The position numbers and the translations under genes are program-made. This document shows, piece after piece, positions 9,293 to 60,285 of a stretch of 64,000 bases of DNA; within the stretch, counting starts at the first letter, position 1; the number at the start of each line of letters is the position of its first letter. The stretch covers positions 27,528,001 through 27,592,000 of the forward strand of contig OX485803.1 of the NCBI GenBank assembly GCA_950295325.1, read 5' to 3'. The notes below the pieces were generated by a model. The model did no database searches. It saw nothing but the letters and a program-made list of their open reading frames with translations, and was not told the DNA's origin. Source of the stretch: Polytrichum commune (Eukaryota > Streptophyta > Polytrichopsida > Polytrichales > Polytrichaceae).

Positions 9293-9336
9293 AACACTAT
9301 ATTCGTTAAATTGAGACTTTCTCTAGTCTCAAATTA
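9293..9336 (+). repeat. Left terminal inverted repeat (transposase-side end) of Giant element 1
   Basis: Starts AACACTATATTCG, then GTTAAATTGAGACTTT. The same end adds a small hairpin, TTGAGACT and AGTCTCAA separated by a few bases. The identical arrangement occurs in inverse at 60242-60285, the transposase-side end of Giant element 2. Confidence 0.9.
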
Positions 9337-9824
9337 ATATATGGATCAAAGAACTTGAAGAGGCCAGAAACTATATTGTCAACAATCTCAATTATATTAT
9401 ATGTTCTAATATCCCAAATCTATGATGTGCGGACATAAGCACATATGGTAGAGCACTCGACACCAACTTCATCAACAAAAACACATTGGGTAGAGCACTT
9501 CAAACAAGTTTCACCCAAAAATATATATAAAATGATTTCTATTATTAGCATGTTCAATAGAATATAGACATTGCAACATACAAAGTGCATGTAATAAATG
9601 CATGTTTCTTCATTCGAGAATATAGTCCCAAGCATAATAATAAGATGAACTTCAATTGCAGCTTGAAATATAGTAAATGGATATTCATCCAACTCCAAAC
9701 AATATAGTATTCGTAAGTTCTACCCAAACTCTGCCCCAATTTTGAAGAGCACACATATGTGTAATTTATATTGCTATAATTACGTATTAAACTATAATCA
9801 TGCTAACACAATCCTACCAACTTC
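9337..9824. other. Subterminal non-coding DNA downstream of the transposase gene
   Basis: A+T-rich, no gene. It aligns by eye with 59751-60241 of Giant element 2 in inverse orientation, so it belongs to the element: transposase 3' untranslated region plus subterminal sequence that may bind transposase. Confidence 0.6.
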
Positions 9825-12800
9825 TCATTCAACGTGGGTTGCTTCTTCTGCAATCCGAGCAAGGTTGTCTTTTGCAAAAGTTATGTACTTTTGAGGGATG
9901 GACACTGATCCACTATGGTGTTTCCGTGGTTTCCATGCTATGAATATGGAATCTGTATCTACCCAAGATGGACCGTGCTCAGAATCCACCTTCCACCGAA
10001 AGTTAGGGTTTGTATCCCAGCCTGTATAATGCTGAATCACATCTTCATTCCTTGCTGTCGGTCGATAGTACTCCACTTGTATTTGTCGAAAATGAGGGCT
10101 GGAAGTTACAAAATTGGGATTGGACAAAGCTCTTGCCACCCACACTGGCTTCGCATATGTCTCGTCTCCAGGACGCAAAATGAGCATATAACCTTCATGA
10201 CAATCCACTGCAATGCGGAAAGATGGTGGGGGACGACTACTAGCAGGCCCCACGTAATGGTCGTCCACATCAAACTCCTCTCGAACCTCTCCATTTCCCA
10301 AAAGACTAGGCTCTGAAGCTTGTACATCGACTCGTGTTTGTGGCCAAAATCCATGCCTCAAAGTATGAGGGCTATCTTGGTGGAGGTCTGCCAAGGCGGC
10401 ACGAACACGTGTCCAATAATGTATCCAACTCCCATAACGATGCCAACATGATCCGCCAACATCCGCTATTTTCAAACTCTCCCAATATTGTATGAAGCCT
10501 GATATACCTTTCAAAATATCCTCCAAATTCTTCATGGCTATTGGCTTACAAGGCCTAGGCTCCCCATCCGGTAACATGGTCTTTCCATCCGCATCCACGC
10601 GCCACACAAGAAGACCCTCCGGCGGGCTCCAGTCTTGTGACGTGCACAACAACTTGTATTGCATGGCCGGGACACCATCGTCACGCATATAGAAGCGGAA
10701 TTGTTGTGCCTTCGTATGCCCGATCAATCGGTGAGCTCCACTTCGAATATAAGGTTCTATAAATGCCTTGAAGTCTGGCACCTCCTCAATCATATGGGGG
10801 ATGACGGGAACGTTCTCCAAATCCATGTACGACTTCATCAATAATGGAATTGTAGGAAAATCCTCCTCCCGCAACTTCATGCTCCACCGCCCAAAAGATG
10901 CATCAATATCATCGTGCGTGTGGCCTACCAATAGGAAGGACACAAAAACCTCCTTGAAAATGCCTTTCGCAACCAACAACGACCAATATGCAAATACATA
11001 TCTGCTTTTATTGTCCTTGGCACAATTGTCCAATTGGACACGCAAAGTTGGAGGCAACTTCTTGGCAATCACGGGTTCATTGGGTGGCTCGGGCAACGAA
11101 TGCAAGCATACATCTTTTCCATCCAACACCGCTTCATATAAAGGTGTTGAACCCGTGTTCTCAAATAACAATCCTGAAGAATAGGCTGGTGGTTTCTCTA
11201 AATCACGTAAAAGCCTTGCAAATGATCCTATCGTGTGGTTTGAATCCGCTGGATACAAATCAAGAGCATAATGAGCAAATTTGACATCACCGTGTCCATG
11301 TGCAATCATTCCTGCAATGCCAACCCAACGTGATTAGCATCTATGTATGAATAAACCATTATGAAGGAATTCATGTTCTCCAGTACATCACGGAATAAAA
11401 TACAACAACATTTAGGGTATGTCATGACATTGTTTCGAAGTTCACCTGTAACCGATACAGGCAACTTGAAAAACCCATCCGTGGCCTTGATTCGATTTGC
11501 AAAACATGGGGAGGTTGTTTTGGCATGGTCCATTTTGTCATGGATGACCGTAAGAACCTCCAAGGGCCTGGAGATGGACAAAGCTCTATTTGTGTAGTAA
11601 TCATTACGGTGTGCCTCTTGCATGTTTACGTGCTTGAAATAGTTCAATTGATGCGCTGCATATGACTCGGTGCCCATCGTGTGTGCATCCCGGAGGCGCT
11701 TCAACTTCTCGCAATTAGAGCACCTGGCAAATTTGTCCCCTCGTCTTTTTGTAATGTATTCGCTAAAGTTTTGTTTCTTGATTGCACTCAATTTTGACAA
11801 TGAAATTGGCTCCAACCCAATCTTTTCGCCAACTGCATTAACGTCCAACAATATGTCTTTCCATTTTGTGCCTGTGGGAAGAACTTTCTCTACAACCTTT
11901 TCACCGGTTGTGAATGTGCGTGTTTTGTGCGGCATTGCATCGGCAAGAGGGACAATGATGGTTGCTAGAGTGGCCGTTGCTTGCCTTGTTGCTTCCCTAG
12001 GCTTCTTTAAACCCACGTTACCATGGTGACGGGACCGGCGGCCTTCCTTGGCATAAGCAGCTTGTCTATAAAAGTCCGATTTCGACACACCGTGAATGGT
12101 GTACCATGCCTTACAACACACGTCTATGCTTTCAATGGTGATGACCTTGCGACCCGTCCCATTCACATGTATCGCCCTATGGACATCAAGTTTTCTTGTG
12201 GATCTTAGACGGAAATCACCAAGCCACATTTCTTCGCGGATGGCCTTCAATTTATCCCTTGGAAACAATTGGCAACAACGATGCACACAACAATCCTTTG
12301 TGGCAACTTCTCTAATGGACTCCTCCCCGAGCAACCTTTGACGTTTACAATCAGTTGCAGACGGAGCAGGACGTGCCAATGTATCGTACTTTCTTTGACC
12401 CTTGCGCGGCCGCATGTTTGATTGCACCTCCTTTTCGATTTGCATGTGTCGTTGCTCATGTTCACGCAAGCTAACTCCATCAATTGTGACATTCCTCAAT
12501 GGCCACCTGCGGAGGGAGAACCTATGAGTGGGATCCACCTCGGAATGAACGACCGACTCCAATATGACAACCCCAACGTCCTCAGTGCCAAGCGGGTTTT
12601 CATCAATGCAATCTTGCGGATGGGTGTTACGGCAAATCCCCTCCGCCACAACAACTCCACTATCGTTAAGAAGTATCACCTCCAAATTCACCCACGAAGC
12701 CCTTGAAAGTCCCGTACATTCAACAATGGGACACTACGGTACGGAAGACGAAGGTAAATCCAAATGATCTTCATCCGCACTGTCAGCCATAGTATCCTCC

Positions 12801-12889
12801 CCGACAATGTCTAGGTCATCATCAGATGCAGATGGCCAAGTGGCCATGTCATCAGATGACCAATCCCCTATTTCACTAAACCCATCCAT
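9825..12889 (-). pseudogene. Giant-element transposase, copy 1 (nonsense codon)
   Basis: Probable cut-and-paste transposase, just inside one terminus of the element. It starts at the ATG at 12889, directly after an apparent splice acceptor (TGTGTAG then GCAGA). The N-terminus is acidic (SSDDMATWPSASDDDLDI). Next come a Cys-rich stretch (KDCCVHRCCQLFP), a CxxC segment (SNCEKLKRL) and three blocks that look like an RNase H-fold acidic triad: IHDKMDHAKT, QLDNCAKDNKSRYV and GHTHDDIDASFG. These blocks recall DUF7869-type and Sola-type transposases; I could not test this. A TAG at 12734-12736 replaces the CAA codon present in copy 2 and would stop translation at codon 52. Between 11306 and 11309 the frame changes, in the same place as in copy 2, probably at a short intron of about 60 bp. 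Confidence 0.72.
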
Positions 12890-13102
12890 TCTGCCTACAC
12901 ACATGAACATTGAACATTGTCTTAAAATCACAAAAATTGTAGGTTCAAATCGAAGAACAAAAAAACCATCATATATAAACAAAATTGCAAATACTCAGTG
13001 CTCATACAAGTTCATATGACTGCTATGCCATTGGGCTTGCAAAGGTTTCGGAAGGCCAGTGGCCACACCGGCACCCAGATCCCAACCACACTTAGAGGCT
13101 GG
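12890..13102. other. Transposase 5' intron or leader
   Basis: Non-coding stretch between the palindrome array and the first transposase codon. The acceptor-like sequence on the minus strand just before the ATG suggests a 5' untranslated exon further upstream. The same layout occurs at 41595-41806 of Giant element 2. Confidence 0.45.
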
Positions 13103-13905
13103 GTTTGGGTCGAGCGACCCAAACCTTTTGGGAGGATGGGTTCAGGCTCAATACAGAGAGCACCCACACTTAGGCGCTGGATTTGGGTCGAGCGACCCAA
13201 ACCTTCTGGCAGGATGGGTTTAGGCTCACTACAGACAGCATCCACACTTAGGGGCTGGGTTTGGGTCGAGCGACCCAAACCTTTTGGCAGAATGGGTTTT
13301 GGGTCACGACAGGGAGCACCCACACTTAGAGGGCTGGGTTTGGGTCGAGCGACCCAAACCTTTTTGCAGGATGGGTTCAGGCTCACAACAGTGAGCACCC
13401 ACAGTGTAGGGCTAGGTTTGGGTCGATCGACCCAAACCATGAGGCAGGATGGGTTCAGGCTCACAACAATGAGCACCCACACTGTAGGGCTGGGTTTGGG
13501 TCGACCGACCCAAACCATGAGGCAGGATGGGTTCAAGTTCACAACAGTGAGCACCCACACTGTAGGGCTGGGTTTGGGTCGATCGACCCAAACCATGAGG
13601 CAAGATGGGTTCAGGCTCACAACAGAGAGCACCCACACTGTAAGGCTGGGTTTGGGTCGACCGACCCAAACCATGAGGCAGGATGGGTTCAGGCTCACAA
13701 CAGTGAGCACCCACACTGTAGGGCTGGGTTTGGGTCGATCGACCCAAACCATGAGGCAGGATGGGTTCAGGCTCACAACAGTGAGCACCCACACTGTAGG
13801 GCTGGGTTTGGGTCGATCGACCCAAACCTTGAGGCAGGATGGGTTCAGGCTCAATACAGAGAGCACCCACACTGTAAGGCTGGGTTTGGGTCGACCGACC
13901 CAAAC
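13103..13905. repeat. Array of 11 palindromes, 78-bp period, upstream of transposase copy 1
   Basis: Eleven copies of a 22-bp palindrome with arms GTTTGGGTCG and CGACCCAAAC and two variable centre bases (AG in the first four, then AT or AC). They are spaced by a 78-bp unit that also contains 'gaggcaggatgggttcagg' and 'gagcacccacac'. Because 78 is a multiple of three, all frames stay open and long false reading frames of 286-320 codons arise on both strands. The array lies 214 bp upstream of the transposase start codon. Confidence 0.92.
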
Positions 13906-14524
13906 AATTCCGCAAAATCCGCCTATTTATTCGGGTGATGCTCTATTAATCTATTTATAACCTATTTGGGACAACTGAACTCATAGATGCTTGTTGTAAT
14001 TAGCTGCTCATGAATGGAAGCGTATACAAACCGTGTATTACAGCTCCAACTTAGAGAGCTTGCAGCAATCTCAGGATTGGGACATGAAAGAAAGAACCAG
14101 CATTTGGGGGGTTGGACTCTTTATACTACCCGCCTCCGCTTTGGGCATCCTCTTTGGATGCCTTTCCCACCTGGTCTCCTTTGGATGTTAATTCAAACCT
14201 TCTGACTCAATTTCCCGCTTCTTGTCAATAATAGAGAATGTATATTTAGCTTGGCTCTTCGTTGCCCCAACCACCAAATGAATAATTCAACATATATTTA
14301 AAGTTGTTACCACCCTAACTTGGTCAACACTATTCTTCAACTCTTTCATAATTAGTTTTATACATGAATACACCACCACCTTCCCTATTGCCATCTCCTT
14401 TCTCCTTTTATCATTGTTGTATATTTTTCTCACATCCTTACTAATACTAAATCCCTATATGTAACTTCCATATATCACCATAGTGGATATTTAGTGTTTG
14501 AGTTTACATTTAATGTTACTTACT

Positions 14525-14665
14525 CTCATAGGGTTAGTAATGGGAAGTGTATGCATTCGTTTTAAGTGTATCAAACACTAACTATCATATAACTAAAAAG
14601 GATATAAAGATTTTGATACACTACATATGAACGCATACACTGAATACCAATAACCCTATGACAAT
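14525..14665. repeat. Imperfect inverted repeat (foldback) in the core, copy 1
   Basis: The arms run from 'catagggttagtaa' with 'gtgtatgcattcg' and 'gtgtatcaaa' on the left to 'ttgatacac', 'gaacgcatacac' and 'aataaccctatg' on the right. The loop is about 50 bp. The corresponding structure in Giant element 2 (38670-39085) is larger and extends the arms outward. Confidence 0.7.
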
Positions 14666-15474
14666 ATGTAAGATTATATCTATTAAGGGGTTTTACTCTA
14701 CTTGTAGTCAAACATTATGGTATATTTCAAACAATATATTGACAAAAGATGTGCATGTATTATAAAACTTCATATACTAAAAGTCACTAAATATAATAGT
14801 TAATGCTATTATTTAGACTCTCACATGAGGACTTATATTTTGAAAACAAATAATTAATGCCATGACAAACTTGAATAATTTGGCCAACTTTCAATTTCTG
14901 CTAATTAAAAGAACATATGTTGTGTTGTAATGTGTGCACCCAATATTGCTTCATCCTCAAGACTCCAAGTGTGACAATAACCTAGTACCTATGTGGAAGT
15001 CATTAATGGAACCCTAAACCACAAATGACATTTGGCACGTTCAATCTTCCAAGGATGTTTGAACCTATCGTGAAGTCCCTTGAACTCTACCAATGTGTGT
15101 GAGCAAAACATGCAAAGTTCAAAAGGTATGTCCTCATATCATTCACAACATGAAATCTACTTTAAATTAATATATAATATTTCACTATTCCAAATAACAT
15201 GTTAACATGAACAACATCCTATCCATTATAATCTAGTTCTTATGCTCTTCTTACCAGGTGACAAGGTTATAGGTTAATATTGTATCACCTACTTGTGAGC
15301 ACAATATCGTTTATTTCCTTTAGTGCGTTCATTCGTGAAAAACCACACATCCATCTTTCACGTTTGTGAATTAGGATGTTGTGATGACAATATACATTTG
15401 TATTGGAAACTACAAGCACCAAGGCCCATGTCATTTGACCTATGTGCCATCCAGTTATGGTTTGTGTTGTTTAA

Positions 15475-15508
15475 GGTTTAGGGTTTAGGGTTTAGGGTTT
15501 AGGGTTCA
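15475..15508 (+). repeat. Interstitial telomere-like repeat (TTTAGGG)n, copy 1
   Basis: Four perfect and one imperfect copies of the plant telomere unit TTTAGGG stand in the element core. Giant element 2 has the complementary CCCTAAA run at the corresponding place (37803-37828), so the tract was part of the ancestral transposon and was not added at this locus. Confidence 0.9.
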
Positions 15509-16159
15509 GGCATCATCAAACATCAAACTGAATGTTTAAATGACTTCATATGATATGTGAACTCCATGGGGTTGCAGTAGATACATTTGTAATCATTTGT
15601 TTCTCCCATGTACTTCAAATGTGAACTTCTAAGTACATATATTAATGTTCACTCTAATGCTACTTGTTAGGGTATCCATTATAGACTAGAGCATTGTCCT
15701 CTACCAACAACCATCATATAAATTACAATACATAATCGTAAACTGTTAACCATGTGAATGGTTACCATATTTATATTATTGCACCGTGTAATTGCCTTTG
15801 TGGATTGCAATATAATTATGACTTACTCCTCTTAGACTTTGTAACACTCTCATATGATTCCATAAATTACATTATTCATACACCAAAACGATAATGGCTA
15901 CATTCAACGATGTTATCAATTCCAACGGGTGATCATTCAATTGAACACCATTAAAATATGAGTTGGCGATGGTGTTAATTTTGTGGAATACCTTAGTCCA
16001 CGTAGGTTTTTGAGTGGTATTGAATTGCCGCTAATGAATAGCGGGTTAGAAGGCCGGGGCCAGGCGGCCAAGAGAGGCGCCGGCCCTCCTATGTCCCGCA
16101 CCTAGGGGCAAGGACAACCAGGAAGGCAATCTCCCTAGGGTGGCAGGTGTCAACACCAC

Positions 16160-16228
16160 AAGCCTCGCGGGCAACCACCTAAACCAAGGAGGTGTCGACA
16201 CCTGGCAAGGTGTTGGCCCGCGAGGCTT
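16160..16228. repeat. Hairpin, 13-bp arms AAGCCTCGCGGGC
   Basis: AAGCCTCGCGGGC at 16160-16172 and its reverse complement at 16216-16228 can pair around a 43-base loop. Giant element 2 keeps a slightly eroded version at 37121-37187. It lies just upstream of the presumed leader exon of the ParB-like gene. Confidence 0.75.
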
Positions 16229-16259
16229 CTGAGCCGTTGATGGGCCCGGCGCAATCTAA

Positions 16260-16888
16260 TGGCCCGGATTCGAGGGTTTAGGGTGACCCCTTCCGCTCTC
16301 TCCTTCTCTCCCCTCCTCTTTTTTCTTTCTCTCTTTTTCTTCCTCTCTTCCTCCGCGCCAAGCGCCGCTCTTGGAAACGCCGCCGCCGCTTTCCATAGTG
16401 CCGCGCCAAGCGCTTCCTCTCGCACCTTTTGCTTTTGTCTTGGTCGCGCCGCTTCCCTTCATTCTTCTTTCTCCTTCATTCCTCTCCTCCTCTCTGATGC
16501 TTCTCCTCCTCTTCTCTCATTCTATTCCTCTTGTTATTGTCTTCCTCTTCTTATTCTCTCTTCTTGGTCCAGAGTGTTAGCTTTGAGTGAGTTCGGAGCG
16601 GTTTATTGTGTTGAACTCCTTACTTGTTTTGTAAAATTCATGCATGGAGTGATTTTAGGTTGAGTAGAAGTGAGCACGGTCGAGTGTGATAGAAAGGTAG
16701 AGGTCTTTCAAATTAGGCCTGAGTTTGCAAGAATCAGGGGGTTTGTGAGAAAGTTTTAGGGTGCTTGAGAGATTCATTGTGTTTCTGAGATCTTTGTGAG
16801 AGTTGTTCTTTAGTGCCACAACAGAGTTTCTGAGTCTGGTTGTAAGAAGCAGATTGTGAGAGCAGCTTTCAAGAGTTTGAAAGACAAG
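16260..16888 (+). promoter_or_regulatory. Probable promoter and 5' untranslated exon of the ParB-like gene, copy 1
   Basis: Pyrimidine-rich, C/T-repetitive sequence followed by a G-rich stretch that ends in a good splice donor (GACAAG then GTAAGC at 16889). The next acceptor upstream of a long reading frame is at 18009, immediately before an ATG. The reading frame across 16259-16663 is low-complexity Ser/Leu/Phe and I do not believe it. The equivalent stretch in Giant element 2 is 36252-37080. Inferred from splice signals only. Confidence 0.4.
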
Positions 16889-16944
16889 GTAAGCAATTTG
16901 CATCAGTGCACACAATTTGCATCATTCCCTTTAGGTTCCTGTTA

Positions 16945-16972
16945 CATATACAATGCATAAGCATTGTATATG
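16945..16972. repeat. Perfect 28-bp hairpin at the start of intron 1, copy 1
   Basis: Twelve-base arms CATATACAATGC and GCATTGTATATG around a four-base loop ATAA. Giant element 2 has the same structure with 13-base arms and loop TTAT at 36171-36200. The perfect pairing in both copies while the loop differs suggests selection on pairing or recent gene conversion. Confidence 0.85.
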
Positions 16973-17081
16973 TTGCCCAAGCATTAAACATGCATCTGGA
17001 AACACAGTAGTTTGGGGAGACGACCCAAACTCATATTAAAATATAATAAATATTTGAATTGCAGCCTAAAATGAACTAAAT

Positions 17082-17983
17082 GTTTGGGTCGAGCGACCCA
17101 AACATTGGAGCCTCTTGTTTGGGTCGAGCGACCCAAACATTGGAGCCTCTTGTTTGGGTCGAGCGACCCAAACATTGGAGCCTCATTATGTTTGGGTCGC
17201 TCGACCCAAACATTACAGGGAGAAGAACTAAACCACATTGTAAAATATAAAAGAACTTTAAAAATTAAGTAAATGTTTGGGTCGTTCGACCCAAACATTG
17301 CAGACTGAAATGACTGGGTTGAGGTACCTAAATTTGCAGCCTAACATGTTTGGGTCGCTCGACCCAAACATTACAGGGAGAAGAACTAAACCACATTGTA
17401 AAATATAAAAGAACTTCAAAAATTAAGTAAATGTTTGGGTCGTTCGACCCAAACATTGCAGACTGAAATGACTGGGTTGAGGTACCTAAATTTGCAGCCT
17501 AACATGTTTGGGTCGCTCGACCCAAACATTACAGGGAGAAGAACTAAAGCACATTGTAAAATAAAAAAGAAATTTGAAAATTAAGTAATTGTTTGGATCG
17601 TTCGACCCAAACATTGCAGTCTGAAATGAATGGGTTGAGCTACCTAAATTTGCAGCCTAACATATTTGGGTCGCTCGACCCAAATATTACAGGGAGAAGA
17701 ACTAAACCACATTGTAAAATATAAAAGAACTTCGAAAATTAAGTAATTGTTTGGGTCGTTCAACCCAAACATTGCAGTCTGAAATGAATGTGTTGAGATA
17801 CCTAAATTTGCAGCCTTATCATGTTTGGGTCGCTCGACCCAAACATTACAGGGTGACCACCTAAACCACACTTTAAAATCTAAAAGATCTTTTAAAACGA
17901 CTTTGAAAATTAAGTAAATGTTTGGGTCAATCCTCCAAATGTTAAATGCACATTGCAATACTTTGGGTCGATCGACCGAAACT
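17082..17983. repeat. Palindrome array in intron 1 of the ParB-like gene, copy 1
   Basis: About 13 copies of the GTTTGGGTCG/CGACCCAAAC palindrome. The first four are closely spaced (36-40 bp). The rest lie in a tandem unit of about 160 bp in which a CT-centred copy alternates with a TT-centred copy, separated by 'agggagaagaactaaa' and by 'aattaagtaa' spacer sequence. Several late copies carry single changes, mostly at CpG. The last, degenerate copy lies 27 bp before the start codon. Confidence 0.9.
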
Positions 17984-19343
17984 CACAGTTTCGATTTCTT
18001 GGATTGCAGATGGCCCCTAAAAAGAGACCAGGTGAAAGGTGGTTCATGCTCGCGCCAGACCACCTTTGGCAGGAGTATGAAACTCCACAGGACGATTCTT
18101 ACGTCCCAAAAGATGGCGTCGTTCTGGCATGGTCCGTTCAGGTGGTGAAGGCATCCATGTTCAAGCTGCTATTCGTGGTGAAGGTGGGGACCCACGAGCA
18201 GCACACCTGGGCAACGCTGACGGGATGGGAGGTTGCGTCCGTCCAGTGTCTCGGAGACTACGTAGACGTCATACTGGAGAACTCCGCCGTGCAGAACGTC
18301 CACATGTTCATGCACCAGTTCTCCGAGCCCTTCGACCCCCTGTACGCCAAGGAGACTTGCGTCGACCCTGAAACCATAAAACCGGAGGCTATATTCATAG
18401 ATGGCAGTGTAACGAACACGAAGGTTGCGAGCAGGTTCACGAAGTTAAAACAGGCTATCACGGTTCTCAACAAGGCGCTGCAAAGCAAACCCAAGACGCA
18501 GCAGCCTGTGAGGCGGAAGGCAACGACGGAAGAAGGCGCAGGGTCCTCAAGACCACAAACTGTGAGGAAACCGCGGGCGGTCCCTGCAGACTCGAGACGG
18601 ACGAGCACTACAACAACGCCGGCTGACAGCGAGACGCCAACGCCATCAGGAAGCCGTCAGACGACCCCTTCCAAGAGGGGAAGAGAGTCATCGGGGATGA
18701 CTGACGAGCCTGTTTCCCCGGAGCTCCGGATGCCGAAGCCTGGCCAAGAGGTGGATGCAGGCGAAATACAAAAAATAAACAACAACTTCGAGACAAAATG
18801 CCTGCACTGCTTCTTCATGGGCAGGGACTTCAAATTCGAGGTCAACATTGCGCAGTGCCACCTTGCGCCACCAGAGAAGTGCGTCCGAGCCAAGGAGGAC
18901 GCCTACGTCGACTGGATGGTCGCTCAAATCTTGGGCGGGCAGTTCAAGGACGACAGGCAGACAATTGTTGTCATGCCACAAGGGCTGAAAAGAATGCCGA
19001 CGCCTGAGATGTGGCCGGCAATCTCTAAAAGAGACTTCTGGCTGATTGACGGGCAGCACAGTGTGGAGGCCTCGAAAAAAATCCAGCTGATGACCGAGTG
19101 GAACGACCCCAACAACCGGAAGGAGAAGCTAAAAGTTTGGAAGGCTTTGGTGGTTTGGTCGGACAACGAGACGGTCCTCAGCGACATCTCCAGGTTCTTC
19201 AACATGGGGAACAAAAAGAGGGCCTATCAGGCATCGTGGATCAGAAACATCATGGCCTCGAGGGAGGTGTGGGAGTTTTATGGAAGGCCTCCCAAGGAAA
19301 GGGAGAATGCTAAAGACAAGAACCCCAAATGGGAGGTGAGTAT

Positions 19344-19536
19344 GTTTGGGTCGATCGACCCAAATTCCTACATTGTTTTGTTGTCATCGCCAGGTTGATA
19401 GTTTGGGTCGGTCGACCCAAACTCTGAAATTATTTTGATATTTTCCCCAGGTTCATAGTTTGGGTCGGTCGACCCAAACTCTGAAATTGTTAAGATGTTT
19501 TCGCCAGGTTCATAGTTTGGGTCGTTCGACCCAAAC
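19344..19536. repeat. Four palindromes filling intron 2 of the ParB-like gene, copy 1
   Basis: Four palindromes with centres AT, GT, GT and TT, spaced about 58 bp, with 'gttttcgccaggttcatag'-type spacers. The first begins 8 bp after the donor. The same intron in Giant element 2 (33708-34016) has five, all AT-centred. Confidence 0.9.
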
Positions 19537-20553
19537 TGCTGTTGCATTTGTTTTTCCATTATGTGTTGTCTAACATGTGCTAATGTCTTCCTGTGCAGGA
19601 CTTCAAATATCAAATGATCAATAAATTCTCCTCGATCGACAATGCTAGCCACAAGCAGAAAAAGTATAACGAGCTGAGAGGAGAAATCTATTTGATCACA
19701 GCGTCCGATTCCGTATGGGCAAGATGGAAGAGTGTTTTTGAAAAACACGAGACGGGTGACCTCATGGACCCCGACACCGGCATGCTCTTCAACCAGACTG
19801 GGCGTTTCAAGCAAATGAAGCCTCTGGTGAGGGAGTTCTTCAGAGCGCTTCAAGGTCTCTCCGAGACGACGCCAAGGATATGTACTCAAGGGACGCGACG
19901 GCCACCTTCAGGGAGCGTAGAAGGATGAAGGGGAAGAAGCTGTACGGGGACTATGCGGTGGAGGAGACGATCGCAATAAGCTCCGAGGACGAGGACGACA
20001 TGGAACTCGCCAAGAAGCTGAGGTCTGATCTTGCCTCCCCCAGAGCGTTCGCCGGGAATGTGAAGGTGAAACCGGAGGTCCTCACCGTGGAGGAGGCGAA
20101 CGCAAAAATGCTCCGAGACGAGGAGCAGCGTGTGCGACTGCAGAGGGCTGCCGCCGAGGAACCCTCTGTCCGCAACGAAGTCGCGGAGTTGAGGGCTCTC
20201 CTGTTGGAGCAGGAGCGGCAAAGGGCGATGTCCCAAACTCCGTCCCAAGCGGACCTCATCACGCAAGTGATCCAGGGCATGCTGGCGCAGGGATTGGTGA
20301 TGGCTCCCCCGAGTTCATTCCCTCACTTGCCCGCAGGCTTCCCTCCACAGGATATCCGCCCGCGGCCGGCGTTGGAGCATTCCTTCAGCTTCGCGGATTT
20401 GCTGCAGCCGCACGCCCGTCCTTACGCGCCTGTGCAGCAGGTGGATGATCCAAACCTTTGGCGCGTCCCCGGAGCGTCCAGCTCGTTGGCACCCCCGCCG
20501 CTCCGGCCTCCCATCCTCTTGCCCCCACACCACCAGCGGGACGACCCCCACAT

Positions 20554-20644
20554 GTTTGGGTCGTCCGACCCAAACAGTGCCGACGTTGCAGCGTCGCAGA
20601 GCGACCCTCGCCAAGCAGCAGGGTTTGGGTCGGCCGACCCAAAC
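20554..20644 (+). repeat. Two palindromes inside the coding exon, copy 1
   Basis: Palindromes at 20554-20575 (centre TC) and 20623-20644 (centre GC) are read in frame as FGSSDPN and FGSADPN. Copy 2 has the same two sites at 30877-30898 and 30808-30829. The 22-bp sequence has no stop codon in any of its six frames, which makes it tolerable in an exon. Confidence 0.9.
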
Positions 20645-22220: not shown

Positions 22221-22223
22221 GGC

Positions 22224-51400: not shown

Positions 51401-54400
51401 TTCACCAATTCATTGGTGGTCACCATGTCTCTTGCCGCCACCCAAGCGGTTTCTTTCTCATGGTATCCTCACCATTTCACCAAGTACTCCTTTGTACATT
51501 TTCTTTTCTTTTCACTTGGGCTTCCTACACTTGAGGATGCCCTCCTACCTCATGTTCCAAATGACGTCCACAAGGTCGGGAGGTGGCCTAATCACTTGCT
51601 TGTGATCGGGCCACAAGGTGTCGTCCTTAAATGACTTAAGGAATGAGACATGAAATATGGGATGCACTTTGATCTCGGGCGGTAATTCCAACTTATACAT
51701 GTCCTTGAACATTTGTTCCACAACGGGAAGCGGAGTTGCAATTTTGGAGATGAACTTTGGAGTGAGGCCTTTCGGGTAAGTGAAGTTGTTCACATTCAAC
51801 AACACCTTTTGGCCCACCTCATTCTCCACTTTGCGTCTTCCGGCATTGACTTGCACTTCGTACCACCTTCGGGCTTTCTCCACCAACAACTTGGTCATCT
51901 CCAAGACTTGTTTTTTGCTCCTTGGCCAAGTCCTCACCATCTAGTGTTGAATGTGCCCCCTCGAGAGCTAGGTTAATAGGTTGGAGCGCATCCACTCCAT
52001 AAGCCACCATCAAAGACCACCCCTTGGTAGCCAAGTGCGTGGCTACATTGCAATTACACTCCGCTCGACCCACATAGTCCGCCCAATCTCCTTGGTCCGC
52101 CCCCACCAAGTTCCTCAAGTATTGCTTCAAGACTCCATTCACATGCTCCGCTTCCCCATCCATTTGGGAATGCAAGGTCGTGCTAAACCTAAGTTTCATT
52201 CCGACCTCCTTAGAGAAATGCATTGAAAATGCACTTGTGAACTTTGGATCTTGATCCCACACAATCACTCTTGGCAACCCGTGGTGCCTCAACCATCCTT
52301 TGAGAAAAGGCTATGCGGTCTCCAACGCGGTGGCGGTTCCCACAATCGGCACCATGTGTGCCAACTTGGCAAACCGCTCTACCATCAACAAGATGGCATC
52401 ATACCCATGTGACTCCGGCAAACTTGTGATCAAGTCCATGCACATACTATGCCATGGCCCCGACGGGATAGGCAACGGTTGCAAGAAGCCGCCTTACTTT
52501 TGGTACGAGGCTCGGTTCACTTGGCACTTCATCCAAGCCTTCACAAAGTGGGCTATATCCTTCTTTATGCACCGCCAATGGTACCCCCATGACACCATTC
52601 TATGGCGGTTTTTTCTTTCTCCTCTATGGCCGGCAATAGGACTATCACATTCTTCCTTCAAAACCGATAGCCTCAACTTGCCTTGTGGCACATACACCCG
52701 ACTTTGTTTACACTTGAACAATCCGTCCACCAACTTAACCTCTTTGAGCACCTTGCTCTTGCGAAGCTCACCTAAAAGCATTTGTGCTTTGGGGTAGTTA
52801 ATTTACCCCTCCCGTATCTTGCATCACAAGTTTCCTTCGCCGGCACACATTAGCCACAAGGTTTGGATGGTTCTCATTGCTTGGAACTCTTCCCGTCTAC
52901 TTAGCGCATCCGGCACCACATTTCCACGGTCCGGTTTGTGGATTAAATCCACCTTCATAAGCGCCAAGCTATCATGCCAACGCAATGACTTGGCGGTCAC
53001 TTGCGCTTGTATGTCAAAATAATTTTAGGACACATTGTCCTTGTAGACCTTTACTTTGTGCGACCCCAACTAGTGTCGCCACATCTTCAAGCAATGCACT
53101 ACCGCAAAGAAATTCTTTGTCATGAGTTGGTTGTCTTCTTTGACAACCATCGAGCTTTATGCTCCCATATGCAATGGCCATCCATCTTACATCAACAATC
53201 CGCCATTAGCAAAGTCGCTCACCCCCGTATGCACCTCAAAAGGTTTGTCAAGCTCCGCGAACTTGAGCACGGGTGTCTAAGAACACTTGCTCTCAAGCTC
53301 CCCAAAGAGTTGGTGGCAAGGTTCATCCCACTCTTGGGATAGCCATTTCTTCCACAAGTCGGATAAGGTCGGATAACCATCAAGCTTAACGCTCTCATAT
53401 GCAATGGCCATCCATCTTACATTGACCATCCGCCAATGGCAAAGTCACTCGTCCCCCGTATGCACCTCAAAAGGTTTTTCAAGCTCCGCGAACTTGAACA
53501 CGGGTGGTAAAGAGGAACTTGGTCTTAAGCCCCTCAAAGACTTGGTGGCAAGGCTCATCCCACTCTTGGGATAGCCATCTCTTGCACAAGTTGGACAAGC
53601 TTCTACAACCATGGAGCTTAATGCTCCTATAAGCAATGGTCATCCATCTTGGATCAACATCCGCCAATGGTAAAATCCTTCGCCTTCATGTGCACCTCAA
53701 CATGCTCATGAAAACCCAGAAACGTAACCACATGTTGTGAAGAGAACTTATTCTTGAGCTCCCCAAAGGCTTGGTGGCAAGGCTCATCCCACTCTTGGGA
53801 TAGCCATTTTTTCCAACATGTTGACTAAGGTTCTAGCAACCTTAGAAAAACCATGAATGAAGTGGTGGTAGTAGTTGTCTAGGCCAACAAATGACCTAAG
53901 CCCTTTTCTTGAATCAAGGGCCAATTCTCTTCTTGGATTGCCTTGACATTCTTCATGTTCGTCCACCAACTTCCTTTGTCACCACATACCTCAAGAACTC
54001 AATCTCTCGTTGAGCAAAGTTATTTTTCACTTCTTGGCGGTAACTTTTTGGGCAACACATTGGTGAATACATCCTTGTATCTCACCAACATCCCACCAAT
54101 GTGGTTTGGAGGAGGCCCATCTTTCCTAGCCTCCCCATACATTCCTTGGAGTTGCTCCAATTGAACCACGACCATTATGTTTTCTATTTTTCATTTGGTC
54201 CATTAAGACCAAATTCAACTTGGGTCCTCCTACCATAGGAGTCCTTGTCAATTTGAACTTCAATTCTTTGCCATTATGACACATCATAATGCACCGCAAG
54301 CTCACCGGCTTGCACCTCACATCTATCATGTGAGTTTCAAAGTAGGCGGCCTTCACAATGACATGCATTTCATCTATTTCACATGGTGTGAAATTTTGAC

Positions 54401-57400
54401 AAATATCCAATGTCCCACATTGAAAGGTTACATGCATCGCGGCCTCCTTTGTCTCATGCGGTTCGCCCTTTCCAAACCGCACCTTGGTGGGCTTGCTTTC
54501 TCTATCAATCGGCAAGCCCCAACTCCCTTGTGAGTTTTGGGCTCAAGAAGGAGTGGTAGCCTCTTTGTCAACACATGAGACATTTCTCCCATTCATTGAG
54601 CCTCAAGGTACAAAAGATTTGGCCTTGGCTTAAGGCTACTAGCCTTGGCCACAATGCCATCGTCTTACATTCGGTCCTCGGCAACTTGGCTTGGCTTGGT
54701 CCGCAAAGCCAACTTTAAACATTTCGTCCGCGGGACAAATTGGTTTGGCGCCACAAAACCAATTTCTAATAGTTTGTCCGCAAAACAAACATGTTTTGCC
54801 TTGGTAGCACAAAGCCACCTTCCCACACTCCGTCCGCGGCACGAACATGAATTGCCTTGGTAGGACAAACCCACCTCCCAACATTCCGTCCGCGGCACAA
54901 GTATGATTTGCTTTGGAAGCATAAAGCCACCTTTCAACATTCCGTCCGCGGCACCAACATGTTTTGCCTAAGTAAAATGGACCAAACAATTTGCACTCAT
55001 TTCTTTGGGACCTACTTTGGCTAAAGCCACTTGTGGTGATGCGCCGCCACACTTCTCTATGGGACCATCGGCTTCAATGCTCTTGCAAACTTGATGGTCC
55101 CCACCATGTCCTCAAGAAGCCTTAGGGACTTAAACAAGGCATCCACCACCCGCTTTTAAAACCCCACCTAAAAGGATGCATTTCTTAGAAAGCTCGTCCG
55201 TTTTAGGTGTATCCTTCATTTGTGCGTTTGAATAGCCCACATAGGCCTTAAGAGGCCCCGGGTGCCTCATTAGCACCAAATTCATTCCAACATCAATACC
55301 TTCTAAGCATTTGGAATTGGAATTTCAATCCAACATTAATGCCCTCTAAGGTTTTGGGTGCATTCGGTATTCTAGGCCCCAAATGTTTTTTGAGGTGTGC
55401 GGGAGCCCTTTCAAAGGACTCCACCATTTTCCTTACCGAATCCACCATCATGCCCACCATTGTCATTAGAACTAATGGTTTGGTCAAATTCCATTTACAC
55501 ATGATCTTTGTTCCAATTTGAGCCTCACAACCTTTTGGAAACCCCGGGTCACCATCACAACCCGCTTATTTGATAGCCATGCTTCCCTCAAAGTGCTAGC
55601 TCAAAAATTGGAAACCTGCTCTGATACCAAGTGTCGCAACCCTTGCTAAGCCCCCTTGACAATCTTGCCAATTTTCAATTCTAGCAAAGGTTACGAGCGC
55701 TAACCCTTCGCATTCCGCCATGCTAATGGATAGCTCCTCTTACCCCGGACCAATAGTTCATAGGAGGGAGCCAACCCTCCTACTTTGCTTTCGGGACTCA
55801 CCCCGTAATCGGTAACCCATTTCCCCAATGTGGACTTCCATCCATGGAAGTCCAATCCCATATTGATCATCGCGTTGCCGGAGCAACACTACAACAACCC
55901 GAAGCATACTAGGCAACTATGGCCTCACAATAGGCCAAAGCCCATGGAGGCCTTGCCGTTCGGCCTCGGGTGGGTGAGGCCACACCACCTCACCCATATA
56001 AGCCTCTAAGACTTCACGCGGGGCCCCTACCCCACCGTCAACCAACCTCTTGTCTCTCTACCAAGGGTTGGGGCCAAGTGGACATTTTCCTTTAGCTGCT
56101 GGGCCTAGAACCCCCCAGCAGCTTCAGACCATCATAACTTCCTTGTATGATGTCTGATCATAACAACCAACCACTCCATCCTCATCTACGCTTCACGTAG
56201 ATGCCGATGGACTCCTCACTTGCCCCATTTGAGCAAGTCTTGAGGAAGTTATGCCTGTTTGAACCTTGGCAGTCCCGGGAATCACTCCCAGGCACTGCTG
56301 TACCAGGGCACTGTCCCGGGACAGCGCCCCACTCAAATGGCCATAACTCCTAGCTCACACCTCCGATTGAGGTGTTCTTGAGCTTTCTAGAATCACCACG
56401 CCATGAGCTACGCATAACACATGGCCTTACCCTTGTGCCTCCTAGTCTTCGTGGGTGGGAGGCGTTCCCAACGCCCGGGGCCCTCACCCACACTAGGATC
56501 ACTTGGGCCCTCTCACCAACGGCGCCACAAGTCCCGGGTGTCACTCCGGGGTCCCCCTTGTGCCCATGGTGTTTTGGGCACTCCTCATGGAGAGGTGCGC
56601 GACAATGAGGGCATTTTGCGAGAATGATCAACAAGATTGGCCGACACTCATACCTCTTGCCGAATTATGCTATAACACTACGATTTCGAGAACAACGGGT
56701 AAGACCCCGTTCTATTTGTGTTACGGGCAAGAGGCGGTGTTAGCAAGTGACTTGTCCGTTGGTCAAAGTGAGTTTACTCGTGACCAAGAACGACTCTCAG
56801 GTTACTACTCGCTCGACGCGGCCCAATGGGTTGCGCGGAGGCAAATGATACTCCGAAACGCTAAGGCCATGATGGCCAAAGCGCAAGATAGATACGCAAG
56901 TGCGGTAAACAAGAAACGGAGAGAGGTAGCATTCCAAGTGGGAGAAAAGGTATGGTTGGACTCGCGGAACTTAGGAATTCCTACGGAACTTTCGATTAAG
57001 TGGTCCGCGAGGTGGATAGGCCCGTTTCCGGTGAAGAAGATTCTTCATCCGGACGTATACGTGCTAGACTTGGGCAAACGAGTTGGTAAGAGTTGGCATC
57101 CGGTGTTCCACGTGTCCTTACTCAAGAAGTATAATCGCGACGAGAAGGAATTGCATCTGTGGCAGGAAGATCCTAGGCCGCCGCCGGAGTATGAACTTTG
57201 GGACGGGGCAGTTGGAAGGGTCACGGCAATTCTAGACTCGCGGCAAATACACGGACGAGGGAAGCAGTATAAGTGCTTGATGCACGGCTACTCGCCATAT
57301 GAGTACGAGTGGATAAACGGGGTGAACTTACCGCACGCCAAAACTCTTATCAAGGCGTTCGAGGCTCGCAAGCTCGCCGAAGCGGCAGCCGCGGCTAACG

Positions 57401-57603
57401 CCAAAGCGAACAAGCCGGCACGGAAGCGCACGACGACTAGCAAGAAGTTGCCGCCTCTCATTGACGATAACGACATTGAGGAGGATGAAGGTCTAGTGAC
57501 GCGACGGGACGAGGAGCCAACTAACCCATTGGATGTGCCCCGTTACACGAAACCCACTAAGAACAAGCGTAGAATGGCCGGTCCCATCCACGTTAGGCAT
57601 TGA
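45438..57603 (+). CDS. T1 Gag-Pol polyprotein (split by T2; exonic parts 45438-49558 and 56610-57603)
   Basis: The ATG at 45438 (or 45453) opens one frame. Gag: Glu-rich start, capsid-like region, CCHC knuckle [14 protein letters not shown] near residue 404. Protease: [11 protein letters not shown] near 503. [17 protein letters not shown] and [11 protein letters not shown] near 845. RNase [12 protein letters not shown] near 991. Integrase: [12 protein letters not shown] with CVKCQ, then core acidic positions in MDFMTG, VSDRV and TERIN. T2 cuts the frame at NMYM, and it continues with [11 protein letters not shown] after removal of T2 and one ATGAG. The end has the WIGPFPV block and a chromodomain ([21 protein letters not shown]) that steers integration to marked chromatin. 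No stop is seen in either part. VSDRVLVF has Val where DxP or DPxF is usual. Confidence 0.9.
49559..50531 (-). repeat. T2 3' LTR
   Basis: 973 bp. Contains the GGGACAGCGCCC and GTCCCGGGAC palindromes near 50230-50250 shared with T0 and the other T2 LTR. Confidence 0.92.
51545..52292 (-). pseudogene. T2 integrase core and C-terminal remnant
   Basis: Two overlapping minus-strand frames: 52292-51819 has [13 protein letters not shown] and a degenerate [11 protein letters not shown] (usual form: HPQTDGQTERVN) with Glu kept; 51940-51545 has [18 protein letters not shown] and [10 protein letters not shown], the GPF-like C-terminal domain. Stops and frame changes separate them. The DDE core is incomplete, so no active integrase is made. 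Between 50532 and 51545 I see only decayed non-coding or untranslated sequence. Confidence 0.75.
52494..52781 (-). pseudogene. T2 integrase zinc-binding remnant
   Basis: Encodes [16 protein letters not shown], then GHRG and [19 protein letters not shown], a degraded H2C2 finger. It precedes the core fragment in the element's own direction, in the proper order. Confidence 0.65.
53150..53830 (-). repeat. Tandem repeat inside T2 built from an RNase H fragment
   Basis: Three to four units of about 230 bp each contain 'ttggtggcaaggttcatccc' and 'gcaatggccatccatctta'. On the minus strand they encode repeated LGSLRASV and [12 protein letters not shown]-like words, that is, part of the RT thumb/RNase H start. 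Fragment expansion after loss of function is the simplest explanation. Confidence 0.7.
53784..53969 (-). pseudogene. T2 reverse transcriptase thumb remnant
   Basis: [31 protein letters not shown] corresponds to the conserved [12 protein letters not shown] region at the end of gypsy RT. The palm with the YxDD box is not recognisable upstream. Confidence 0.7.
54126..54515 (-). pseudogene. T2 protease-to-RT linker remnant (uncertain)
   Basis: A 129-codon minus-strand frame with [13 protein letters not shown] and [21 protein letters not shown]. The second half resembles the late protease segment of gypsy elements (LPFDVILGMDWL-like position). Evidence is weak; the call rests on order within T2. 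Confidence 0.3.
54660..54990 (-). repeat. About 62-bp tandem repeat in T2
   Basis: Five units containing 'ccgtccgcggcac' or 'cgtccgcaaaac', then 'gttttgccttgg' and 'acaaagccacctt'. On the minus strand this encodes repeated VPRTEC and CYQGK-type Cys-rich words, which could mimic zinc motifs but are only repeat translation. From 54990 to 55617 I see no other feature. Confidence 0.75.
55618..55629 (-). other. T2 primer-binding site (initiator Met tRNA, minus strand)
   Basis: GCTCTGATACCA is the complement of TGGTATCAGAGC and lies two bases from the right LTR. It fixes the orientation of T2. Confidence 0.88.
55632..56604 (-). repeat. T2 5' LTR
   Basis: 973 bp; differs from 49559-50531 at scattered positions and in small indels. 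Confidence 0.92.
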
Positions 57604-58256
57604 TGGTTGGCGAGGTCGCCAACGCCTCTAAGTGGGGGAGGGCGTGTACCCCAAATCGAGCAAAAGGTGAGTAGAAAGGAAGTGCAACCCAAAGCACAAG
57701 CTAAGGAAAGCTAAGATTGTGAAAGTAAGACGGTGAGAGCACAAGTACACGTAGAATGAACCTAAGTCGAAGTCGGAAGATGGGCGCCGCCAAGGGGACT
57801 ATCGAAGCAAAGTAAGATGGCTTGGTTGTGGCGATACCAAGGTGCGGGTGCCGAGCGTGAGGAGGATCTCCCACATGGCACACCCCGGATCGAAAGAGCA
57901 TGAATGGCCAATCATGTCCTAATGGGTAAACGGGGGAAGGTCTAGCTAACTCGAACGCATTCTATTACCAGCCGGCAACAAATACCCGACACTCGCTGCG
58001 GCCAGGCGAGGTCTAAAGACCGAGGGACTTGAGGATTGTTCTAGAGGTGGCAATTCCCGATTCTACACGAACGGGAGCCGCAATGGATTGGCGCAAGTAG
58101 GAGGGAAGGCACACGCGTTCAAAGCCTTCGCCTTGGAAGCTAAAACGAGCCGGTGAAGGATCCACACCGAAGGCGTTTAGACTTCGCCCCGTCCGGGACG
58201 GGAAGAGCCGAATTAAGGACTTGATGCGGACATCAAGTGTTCTAAGCGGGGGAGGA
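57604..58256 (+). other. T1 3' non-coding region with polypurine tract
   Basis: About 650 bp between the stop codon and the 3' LTR, no reading frame. A first purine-rich block (AAGTGGGGGAGGG) is at 57630-57642. The true polypurine tract GCGGGGGAGGA is at 58246-58256, directly before the LTR. Confidence 0.75.
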
Positions 58257-58758
58257 TGTAAGGCCTCGTTAGAACGGGCTAAACACTTAAGAGGTTTTGG
58301 GTGTGGCCTTGAGCCACACCTCTTGAGTAGGGTTGAACCCGGTTGGGTTTCGGGACTAAGGCGGGAGGACTTAGTCGCGAAGGTGGGGTGACCCGTGCGC
58401 GAGGCACGAAGGTCTTGGCCGCGAGGCTAAGGGGTGAGTCTTTGAAGAGACTCGGAGCACATGCGGGGCATGTGGGAAATGCCCAACTCCCGGGGCCGTG
58501 GCAAGGGTCCGGGGTACCGAGGGATGACTATTAATAGCCCCAAAGGAGTGTTAGGAAACTAGTACGCAAGTACTTAGGATCGGGACTCGTTGGGACTAGT
58601 CGGGACTAGTCACAACGAGCCGGGACATGTCGGGATGAGTCGGGACTAGCCCGGGACTAGTCATGGCGAATCGGGACTCACGGGGCAAAGTGGTTTGCAG
58701 GTGGTGAGTTAGAAGCTTTGCGCGGGGCGCAAGGGACGTAACGTTGAGCGACGTTACA
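58257..58758 (+). repeat. T1 3' LTR
   Basis: 502 bp, one visible difference from the 5' LTR. Confidence 0.92.
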
Positions 58759-59750
58759 ATGGAGAGGTGCGCGACATCCCCCATATGATTGAGGAGGTGC
58801 CAGACTTCAAGGCATTTATAGAACCTTATATTCGAAGTGGAGCTCATCGATTGATTGGCCATACGAAGGCACAACAATTCCGGTTCTACATGCGTGACGA
58901 TGGTGTCCCGGCCATGCAATACAAGTTGTTGTGCACGACACAAGACTGGAGCCCGCCAGAGGGTCTCCTTGTGTGGTGCGTGGATGCGGATGGGAAGACC
59001 ATGTTACCGGATGGAGAGCCTAGGCCTTGCAAGCCAATAGCCATGAAGAATTTGGAGGATATTTTGAAAGGTATATCAGGCTTCATTCAATATTGGGAGA
59101 GTTTGAAGATAGCGGATGTTGGCGGATCATGTTGGCATCGTTATGGGAGTTGGATACATTATTGGACACGTGTTCGTGCGGCCTTGACAGATCTCCACCA
59201 AGATAGCCCTCATACTTTGAGGCACGGATTTTGGCCACAAACTCGTATCGATGTACAAGCTTCGGAGGCTAGTCTTTTGAGTAATGGAGAGGTTCGTGAG
59301 GAGTTTGATATGGACGACCATTACGTTGGGCCTGCTAGTAGTCGTCCGCCACCATCTTTCCGCATTGCAGTGGATTGTCATGAAGGTTATATGCTCATTT
59401 TGCGTCCTGGAGATGAGACATATGCAAAGCCAGTGTGGGTGGCAAGAGCTTTGTCCAATCCAAATTTTGTATCTTCCAGCCCTCATTTTCGACAAATACA
59501 AGTGGAGTACTACCGACCGACAGCACGGAATGAAGATGTTGTTCGGCATTATACAGGCTGGGATACAAACCAACACTTTCGGTGGAAGGTGGATTCTGAG
59601 CACGGTCCATCTTGGGTAGATACAGATTCCATATTCATAGCATGGAAACCACGGAAAAATCATAGGTGGATCAGTGTCCATCCCTCAAAAGTACATAACT
59701 TTTGCAAAAAACAACCTTGCTCGGATCGGAGAAGAAGCAACCCACATTGA

Positions 59751-60241
59751 ATGAGAAGTTGGTAGGATTGTGTTAGCATGATTATAGTGTAAACTGTGAT
59801 TCGACGAATATATATTACTCATATGTGTGCTCCTCAAACTTGGGGCAAAGTTTGGGTAGAACTTGCGAATGCTATATTGTTTGGGGTTGGATGAATATCC
59901 ATTTACTATATTTCAATACAATTGTGAAGTTCATTTTTTTATTAAGTTTGGGACTAAATTTTCCATTGAAGAAAAATGCATTTATTGCATGCACTTTGTA
60001 TGTTGCAATGTCTATATTTTATTGACCATGCTATTAATAGAAATCATTTTATATGTTTTTTGGGTGAAACTAGTTTGGAGTGCTCTACCCAAAGTGTTTT
60101 TGTTGATGAAGTTGGTGTTGAGTGCTCTACCATATGTGCTTATGTCCACACATAATAGATTTGGGATATTAGAACATATAATATATTTGAGATTGTTCGC
60201 AATATAGTTTCGGAACACGGAATGTTGTTTGATCCATATAT
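59751..60241. other. Subterminal non-coding DNA of Giant element 2
   Basis: Transposase 3' flank, homologous in inverse to 9337-9824. No gene. Confidence 0.6.
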
Positions 60242-60285
60242 TAATTTGAGACTAGAGAAAGTCTCAATTTAACGAATATAGTGTT
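60242..60285 (-). repeat. Right terminal inverted repeat (transposase-side end) of Giant element 2
   Basis: Reads inward as AACACTATATTCG, GTTAAATTGAGACTTT, then CTCTAGTCTCAAATTAA, identical to 9293-9336. Followed by the target duplication AATA (60286-60289). Confidence 0.9.

Follow-up and report, generated by a model that had tools for sequence, protein, structure and literature searches.

Polytrichum commune harbours a family of giant cut-and-paste-type transposons with terminal inverted repeats (TIRs), most of them 14-18 kb long. Two members, copy A and copy B, lie in the window analysed here, a stretch of 64,000 nucleotides (assembly GCA_950295325.1, contig OX485803.1, positions 27,528,001 to 27,592,000). 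Besides a DUF7869 transposase gene the elements carry a second, divergent gene on the opposite strand, in which ParB-like, methyltransferase-like, linker and phosphatase exons are fused, a structure predicted from conserved splice sites. They also contain many copies of a 20-bp palindrome that changes with the element family, as if each family tagged its own copies. Because these sites are laid out like the target motifs of VANC, a protein that belongs to Mutator-type elements, we rank first the reading that the fused gene encodes a VANC-like anti-silencing system built on a ParB-like protein. Arguing from this analogy, we give it about an even chance of being right.

Paired ends define a giant transposon family

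The preliminary description, made from the letters of the window, had reported four shared ends of the form AACACTA(T/C)ATTCG, perfect 4-bp duplications, and two copies of 14.4 kb and about 18 kb with the same genes in opposite orientation. All of this is recovered here: the ends lie at 9293 (+), 23721 (-), 27429 (+) and 60285 (-), the duplications are GAAG/GAAG for copy A and AATA/AATA for copy B, and self-alignment gives an inverted relative orientation with the gene order kept. Copy A measures 14,429 bp and copy B about 18.0 kb once a nested insertion of roughly 14.9 kb is subtracted. The TIR spans 28 bp, over all of which the ends of copy A are identical (27 of 28 positions in copy B).

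We searched the genome (408 Mb in 64 contigs, with the window at 27.53-27.59 Mb of contig C1) for exact matches to the 13-base end motif and found 784 forward and 819 reverse matches, 1,603 together, against 40 (14 + 26) for the reversed pattern. Pairs were analysed among the first 100 matches listed, all on C1. Here neighbouring ends that lie 12-21 kb apart face each other in 16 cases, while the ++, -+ and -- arrangements occur once each. Identical 4-bp flanks are seen in 27 of the 32 facing pairs less than 60 kb apart: nine of the ten complete elements (E1-E10), both window copies, eight of nine end pairs, a 3.6-kb element, and seven of ten further pairs. Of the five pairs without matching flanks, one is spurious, both its ends being of one type. 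Random re-pairing of the flanks yields a mean of 1.1 identical pairs and a maximum of 8 in 10,000 trials. The duplications are AT-rich (86 of 108 bases are A or T). The further paired copies sought across the genome are present, and the proposal that these are giant DNA transposons, a multicopy family that has TIRs and makes 4-bp duplications, is thereby borne out.

The twelve elements studied fall into two groups. Group I consists of A, B, E1, E2, E4, E5, E6, E8 and E9; group II (E3, E7 and E10) has the 13-base end in common with it and diverges in sequence soon inward. E3 and E7 are 99.4% identical over their whole length, so that transposition must have been recent. In E8 and E6 the first 3 kb are 97-98% identical and the last listed kilobase 94%, with 66-93% (mostly below 84%) in between; synonymous divergence amounts to 0.06-0.11 for the transposase, against 1.5 for fusion exon 2. 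The ends and transposase on the one hand and the interior on the other thus have different histories, a mosaic evolution that probably came about by recombination between elements.

As to the two window copies, the earlier wording "two full copies" is right for their boundaries and wrong for their content, neither being intact. About 1.7 kb is missing from copy A relative to its sister copy E1, a loss that takes in the greater part of the methyltransferase-like exon. The transposase frame of copy A begins late in comparison with E4 and E8. In copy B, transposase exon 2 is split and fusion exon 3 is out of frame. The features of both copies are as follows (TSD, target-site duplication; ORF, open reading frame; LTR, long terminal repeat).

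Copy A
9293..23721, minus strand: whole element, 14,429 bp, paired ends; transposase at left, read on the minus strand
9289-9292 and 23722-23725: TSD GAAG, flanking the paired ends
9293..9320, plus strand: TIR of the transposase side, 28 bp
9828..11311, minus strand: transposase exon 2 with the DUF7869 domain (PF25273); splice sites found in several copies
11446..12733, minus strand: transposase exon 1, late-opening frame (intron 11312-11445, 134 nt)
13104..13904: 11 palindromes TTTGGGTCGNNCGACCCAAA in units of about 78 bp in tandem, upstream of the transposase
17083..17981: 13 palindromes upstream of the fusion gene
18010..19335, plus strand: fusion exon 1, coding for the N-terminal region and the ParB-like domain with its DGQH motif (aligned by hhalign with ParB-like proteins of phages)
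19345..19535: 4 palindromes in intron 1
19599..20905, plus strand: remnants of fusion exons 2 and 3 (about 1.7 kb deleted relative to E1)
20555 and 20624: 2 palindromes in exon 3
21410..22220, plus strand: fusion exon 4, NIF/HAD phosphatase-like
22346..23172, plus strand: small third gene, two ORF pieces, the second Lys/Glu-rich
23694..23721, minus strand: TIR of the other side, 28 bp

Copy B
27429..60285, plus strand: whole element, 32,857 bp, orientation opposite to copy A, with nested insertion
27425-27428 and 60286-60289: TSD AATA
28238..29114, minus strand: small third gene, two ORF pieces
29217..30029, minus strand: fusion exon 4, NIF phosphatase-like (PF03031, E 9.8e-15)
30505..41592: 45 palindromes, two of them in exon 3 and the others in introns 1-3 and the intergenic region
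30547..32024, minus strand: fusion exon 3, acidic, Pro-rich linker, frameshifted
32376..33707, minus strand: fusion exon 2, methyltransferase-like by eye, without Pfam match
34017..35366, minus strand: fusion exon 1, ParB-like
41780..43899, plus strand: transposase exon 1 and start of exon 2
43900..58759 (boundaries approximate), plus strand: nested insertion in the transposase, with LTR-like repeats and Gypsy-like pol, from self-alignment
58760..59747, plus strand: remainder of transposase exon 2

One fused gene

ParB-like, methyltransferase-like and HAD phosphatase-like proteins had been listed in the preliminary description as separate cargo. We find instead that they are exons of one gene with three phase-0 introns, in the order ParB-like domain, methyltransferase-like domain, linker and NIF phosphatase. 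The cargo is therefore mostly a single fused gene rather than several captured ones. The Lys/Glu-rich protein does stand on its own: the corresponding ORF is a separate small gene located after the fusion gene, with its second part rich in Lys and Glu.

A reading as four cargo genes was rejected in view of the conserved splice sites. In group I these are GAG|GTGAG..AG, ATG|GTA..AG|ATG and GAG|GTA..CAG|GG for introns 1 to 3; the group II equivalents include AAG|GT and CAG|GT at donor 1 and TTG|GT at donor 2 of E10. All 12 elements have donors 1 and 3 and acceptor 3, and 11 of 12 have acceptor 1 (by motif) and donor 2 (deleted in A). Acceptor 2 is recognised by motif in seven of the 12, and by eye in E10; one of its bases is lost in E7. 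Joining the exons of copy E8 gives one open frame of 1,651 amino acids without a stop. E3 has a full-length open fusion frame as well, and the remaining joined copies have stops or frameshifts.

To judge from pairs with unsaturated synonymous divergence (dS), the fusion exons and the transposase of group I are under purifying selection. Pairwise ratios of nonsynonymous to synonymous divergence (dN/dS) lie at 0.04-0.07 in exon 1, 0.05-0.13 in exon 2, 0.085-0.21 in exon 4 and 0.17-0.18 in the linker, where two of the three rows have one stop; those of the transposase are 0.115-0.23. Saturated pairs, namely most comparisons of group I with group II and seven of the ten within-group-I pairs for exon 1, were excluded. 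Genome-wide, 1,137 candidates for the ParB-like exon were found, and 56 of the 87 that were scored have no stop. For DUF7869, 150 of 1,492 candidates were scored. Both copy numbers are lower bounds, and DUF7869 reaches beyond the transposon family studied. Five more DUF7869 matches cover nearly the whole domain in one stretch (contig:position C2:52992202, C6:41940433, C7:2075344, C3:1632694 and C6:11663904); four of them carry one stop, and they represent further transposase groups.

The domains of the fusion protein are recognised to different degrees. Exon 1 has a conserved DGQH motif, and its profile aligns on this motif with a profile of 11 phage ParB-like proteins (hhalign probability 89.2, P 2.2e-6). 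Control probabilities are 0.1-0.4 for three other element profiles, 0.1 for the reversed profile and at most 1.0 for 40 column shuffles. The profile similarity that marks the ParB-like superfamily, DGQH(R) included, is thus present, and with a row of the third group (described below) added the probability is 91.8 over 23 columns. Sub-cut-off Pfam lines were not accepted (YEATS 0.021, DUF6551 0.23 over the DGQH stretch, CTD2 0.05, N-SET 0.19).

Exon 2 is methyltransferase-like, on the strength of motifs aligned by eye and a published precedent. N4/N6 DNA methyltransferases have a (D/N/S)PP(Y/F/W) motif. Where alignment by eye places this DPPY-type motif, exon 2 reads DFRN/G or YFRA, or DTRF in the third group; nor does it match a family profile of these enzymes above cut-off. 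As a candidate profile for exon 2 we considered gp30 of phage Shpa ('DNA methyltransferase', 80 relatives). It has a PPC motif, which we take as a sign of the C5 type, and was dropped for that reason.

Exon 4 is a NIF phosphatase by profile (PF03031; E-values 9.8e-15 for copy B, 2.9e-16 for E3). NIF/FCP-type HAD phosphatases have a DxDx(T/V) active-site motif; at this position all six aligned copies of exon 4 read DLNGVL, with Asn for the second Asp, and hence depart from it.

Sequence searches of solved structures gave chance-level matches only, and in viral contigs the search with the transposase, ParB and methyltransferase exons led to no confirmed relative. With tblastn, plasmids gave a single match (E 9) and phages three matches at E 7, comprising one ParB-like protein with its duplicate record and one match near thyX. 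The ParB-like match served solely to pick the ParB family for the profile test.

The transposase and its superfamily

The transposase is a DUF7869 protein (PF25273, E 1.1e-42, the sole Pfam match above cut-off) encoded by two exons that are read toward its own element end. Among seven modelled copies the intron between them is 133-138 nt long; joining the exons of E2 gives a broken frame. Our literature search for papers naming DUF7869 found none.

A placement in the Sola superfamily, as suggested earlier, is compatible with the 4-bp TSDs (27 of 32 facing pairs) and short TIRs, the two features on which it was judged. Sola2 elements have TIRs of 12-13 bp and 4-bp duplications (PMC3627910). EnSpm/CACTA elements have CAC..GTG termini and a 3-bp duplication (PMC12730594); this superfamily was rejected, the termini here being AACACTA..TAGTGTT with 4 bp duplicated and the CACTA string sitting two bases inside them. 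We also rejected KDZ (Kyakuja, Dileera, Zisupton), for which a TSD of 7 or 8 bp is expected against the 4 bp seen here. Among DUF7869, Sola and KDZ, named beforehand as families against which to compare the transposase, DUF7869 was matched, while no KDZ-named family occurs among the Pfam matches of the element ORFs.

Palindromic sites change with the element group

All 12 elements contain 21-45 copies of the 20-bp palindrome of their own class (two arms of 9 bp around 2 bp; up to two mismatches allowed). The sequence is GTTTGGGTCGNNCGACCCAAAC in group I, TTACGAACGNNCGTTCGTAA in E3 and E7, and TTACGGACGNNCGTCCGTAA in E10. No group II site occurs in group I elements, nor any group I site in group II elements; the two group II classes differ by one base per arm and overlap at the two-mismatch tolerance. 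Exact matches number 9,731 genome-wide for group I, 5,107 for both group II versions and 819 for the third group, against 0 for each reversed control. In the window all 76 palindromes fall inside copy A or copy B. E1 accounts for 38 of the first 100 group I places listed and E2 for 25, and 18 are close to a third end; the other 19 are in stretches without a listed exact end motif nearby.

The sites occupy the intergenic region between the two divergent genes, the introns and, twice in ten of the 12 elements, exon 3 (none is counted for E10, whose exon 3 figures are excluded, and 13 sites of E9 are unplaced). Exons 1, 2 and 4 carry zero sites in the ten elements with resolved boundaries, that is, all except A and E9. 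The outer 500 bp are free of sites in all 12 elements: the nearest site is 2.4-3.1 kb from the end opposite the transposase, and from the transposase end 2.3 kb in E10 (at 2275, within the transposase region) and at least 3.8 kb in the other 11. Many palindromes are arranged in regular tandem units of 32 to 85 bp.

As a new case we read the upstream side of one DUF7869 locus on contig C4, selected for its differing transposase type. It holds 14 palindromes CCACGGGTGNNCACCCGTGG of the same 9+2+9 shape and none of the other three classes, which brings the count to four palindrome versions with one geometry across three element groups. Of these sites, the transposase has five on its upstream side and a diverged ParB-like exon has seven; the remaining two are located further in. 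The fusion gene of this third group is diverged (tblastn E 9e-21, 24% identity), its ParB-like exon keeps the motif as NGQHT, and it is on the strand opposite the transposase.

A putative anti-silencing system and its alternatives

If the elements work as VANDAL elements do, a dimer of the fusion protein would use the part encoded by its ParB-like exon to recognise the family's own 20-bp palindromes. Loading would take place in the non-coding intergenic stretch and in the introns of the fusion gene, both in cis and in trans, on every copy with matching palindromes. The bound protein would keep the element DNA transcribable and so counter host silencing, as VANC does for VANDAL. The phosphatase end might act on the transcription machinery or on a chromatin protein. 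The methyltransferase-like domain may modify DNA, or perhaps merely aid binding, since the expected catalytic motif is not found.

ParB proteins bind CTP (cytidine triphosphate) and load as clamps on palindromic sites. A more specific version of the mechanism would turn a ParB-parS-like module to self-recognition by a eukaryotic transposon: the ParB-like domain, perhaps as a CTP-gated sliding clamp, would load on the family palindromes, the methyltransferase-like and RNA polymerase II phosphatase-like domains would sustain expression, and at least four protein-palindrome pairs would have co-diverged in one genome. This version we put forward as tentative and on balance doubtful.

A number of observations weigh against the anti-silencing reading. 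The phage protein that seeded the ParB profile was exon 1's own best, non-significant tblastn match (E 7), so the P-value given above is flattering; Pfam gives no ParB family above cut-off for exon 1, and the aligned core is short. For exon 2 no family exceeds the cut-off in Pfam, NCBIfam or PHROG. AlphaFold models, built from one sequence for the methyltransferase-like exon and from two window rows for the ParB core, have predicted local distance difference test (pLDDT) scores of 34 and 37 respectively, too low for use. Furthermore, the palindromes are tied no more closely to the ParB exon than to the transposase or the small protein, since all of these candidates change together between groups. 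The 3.6-kb element (locus L031, 301-3906) is an internally deleted derivative that retains about 2.9 kb on the transposase side and 0.7 kb on the opposite side, and has an exact ATGT duplication without palindromes or fusion gene. Neither may thus be needed in cis for transposition; deletion after insertion would also account for this element. Finally, the third group is represented by one locus, and within 3 kb beyond its DUF7869 domain the AACACTATATTCG end was not found (up to 2 mismatches allowed), so this group seems to have other ends.

Other readings of the same elements follow in descending order of probability. The fusion protein might be a true N4-cytosine or N6-adenine DNA methyltransferase, aimed by its ParB-like part at its own element, which it would mark rather than unmask. 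A conserved N-V-F/C-G-G-S/T-K motif toward the end of exon 2, which is similar to a cofactor-binding motif, fits such an enzyme. The missing methyltransferase family match and the DFRN/G, YFRA and DTRF strings in the DPPY-type place, aligned by eye, do not. Domain pairing and strand arrangement agree with a published gene for a 1104-aa ParB plus methyltransferase protein (PMC12477816). On this mixture of evidence we consider self-modification unlikely.

Alternatively, the protein might have an architectural role in the transpososome. Bound palindromes could pair or condense the element and join its distant ends, or serve to replicate or segregate an excised form in the manner of bacterial parABS. 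Such a role would suit an element longer than 14 kb that has many palindromic sites and encodes a ParB-like domain. The sites, however, keep away from the ends and are in many cases intronic, and the ORFs that were scanned against Pfam included none that is ParA-like, which makes the architectural role decidedly unlikely in our estimation.

The palindromes could also be autoregulatory sites of the transposase or of the small Lys/Glu-rich protein, comparable to TnpA sites, with the ParB-like protein having another job. In most elements the sites begin just upstream of the transposase gene, and the transposase groups differ in palindrome too. However, TnpA-type sites of Spm/CACTA elements are subterminal and the palindromes are internal, while the small gene is short and partly of low complexity. 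We hold this reading to be improbable.

That the palindromes are non-functional tandem repeats, spread within the family by slippage and gene conversion as their regular units might indicate, is very improbable, given that the 18 arm positions are 94-100% conserved over the 33 sites of E8 whereas centre and outer flanks vary, that four unlike sequences retain the 9+2+9 geometry, and that two sites are kept in coding exon 3.

Relation to known systems

The comparisons below cover excerpts of the cited papers. Closest to the elements described here is Sola1-1_Ec32 of the brown alga Ectocarpus, a 21.5-kb Sola-1 element. It too is a giant TIR transposon, and the strand opposite its transposase carries a gene that combines a ParB-like part with a DNA methyltransferase (PMC12477816). 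The preliminary description held its cargo to be unfamiliar from any plant DNA transposon; given the brown-algal element, the combination of ParB and methyltransferase is not new, and relative to the excerpts the fusion to a phosphatase is an addition. The algal genes were suggested to bind and mark their own element, with no target site named in the excerpts (PMC12477816). The product of Sola1-1_Ec32 has 1104 aa against 1,651 aa in E8, and the excerpts mention neither a phosphatase domain nor palindromes. Its methyltransferase was recognised by its authors, whereas exon 2 matches no profile above cut-off. No other paper on transposons with ParB and methyltransferase was among the matches listed in our literature search.

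In Arabidopsis, VANC motifs lie in the introns of VANC and VANB and upstream of VANA, as tandem repeats that differ between related elements (PMC5735166). Our candidate sites resemble them in being tandem, element-specific and placed in introns and upstream regions (PMC5735166, PMC10398659). VANC itself differs: it has DUF1985 and DUF287 domains (PMC5735166), its motifs are short and its binding is demonstrated, against a ParB-like domain, 20-bp palindromes and predicted binding here. Fungal DNA transposons of several lineages carry a DNA-modification enzyme thought to aid escape from silencing, which is similar in principle; the enzyme is another one (TET/JBP) and the TSDs are 8 bp in Zisupton, 7 bp in Kyakuja and 3 bp in EnSpm (PMC12730594). 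Sola2 elements of Dictyostelids share 4-bp AT-rich duplications, TIRs of 12-13 bp and a large transposase (888 aa), and unlike the present family they carry Fanzor1 (PMC3627910).

Relative to this literature our analysis adds the palindromes, the phosphatase fusion, the turnover of matched pairs and the missing catalytic motif. It names explicit candidate sites that are abundant, absent from reversed controls and present in four versions beside four diverged proteins, so that the idea of binding and marking is immediately testable in vitro. If true, a partition-type DNA-binding module would serve as the anti-silencing system of a eukaryotic transposon, and the genome would hold a set of orthogonal protein-palindrome pairs.

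Other features of the window

The insertion in copy B is composite. A 963-bp repeat is present three times, at 43900, 49559 and 55632 (95-97% alike), and one of 505 bp twice, at 44857 and 58254 (99.8% alike); they surround an open Gypsy-like frame of 1385 aa (ORF 45429-49586). Between the two copies, at 23922-26336 on the minus strand, are two long ORFs of 609 and 194 aa, for which the Pfam scan gave no family above cut-off. To the left of copy A, Gypsy-like pol fragments in several frames (3268-7524, plus strand) appear by eye to be a decayed retroelement. Beginning 186 bp past copy B, an open frame of 1084 aa (60471-63725, plus strand) contains DUF659 and hAT dimerisation domains and resembles the transposase gene of a hAT-type element.

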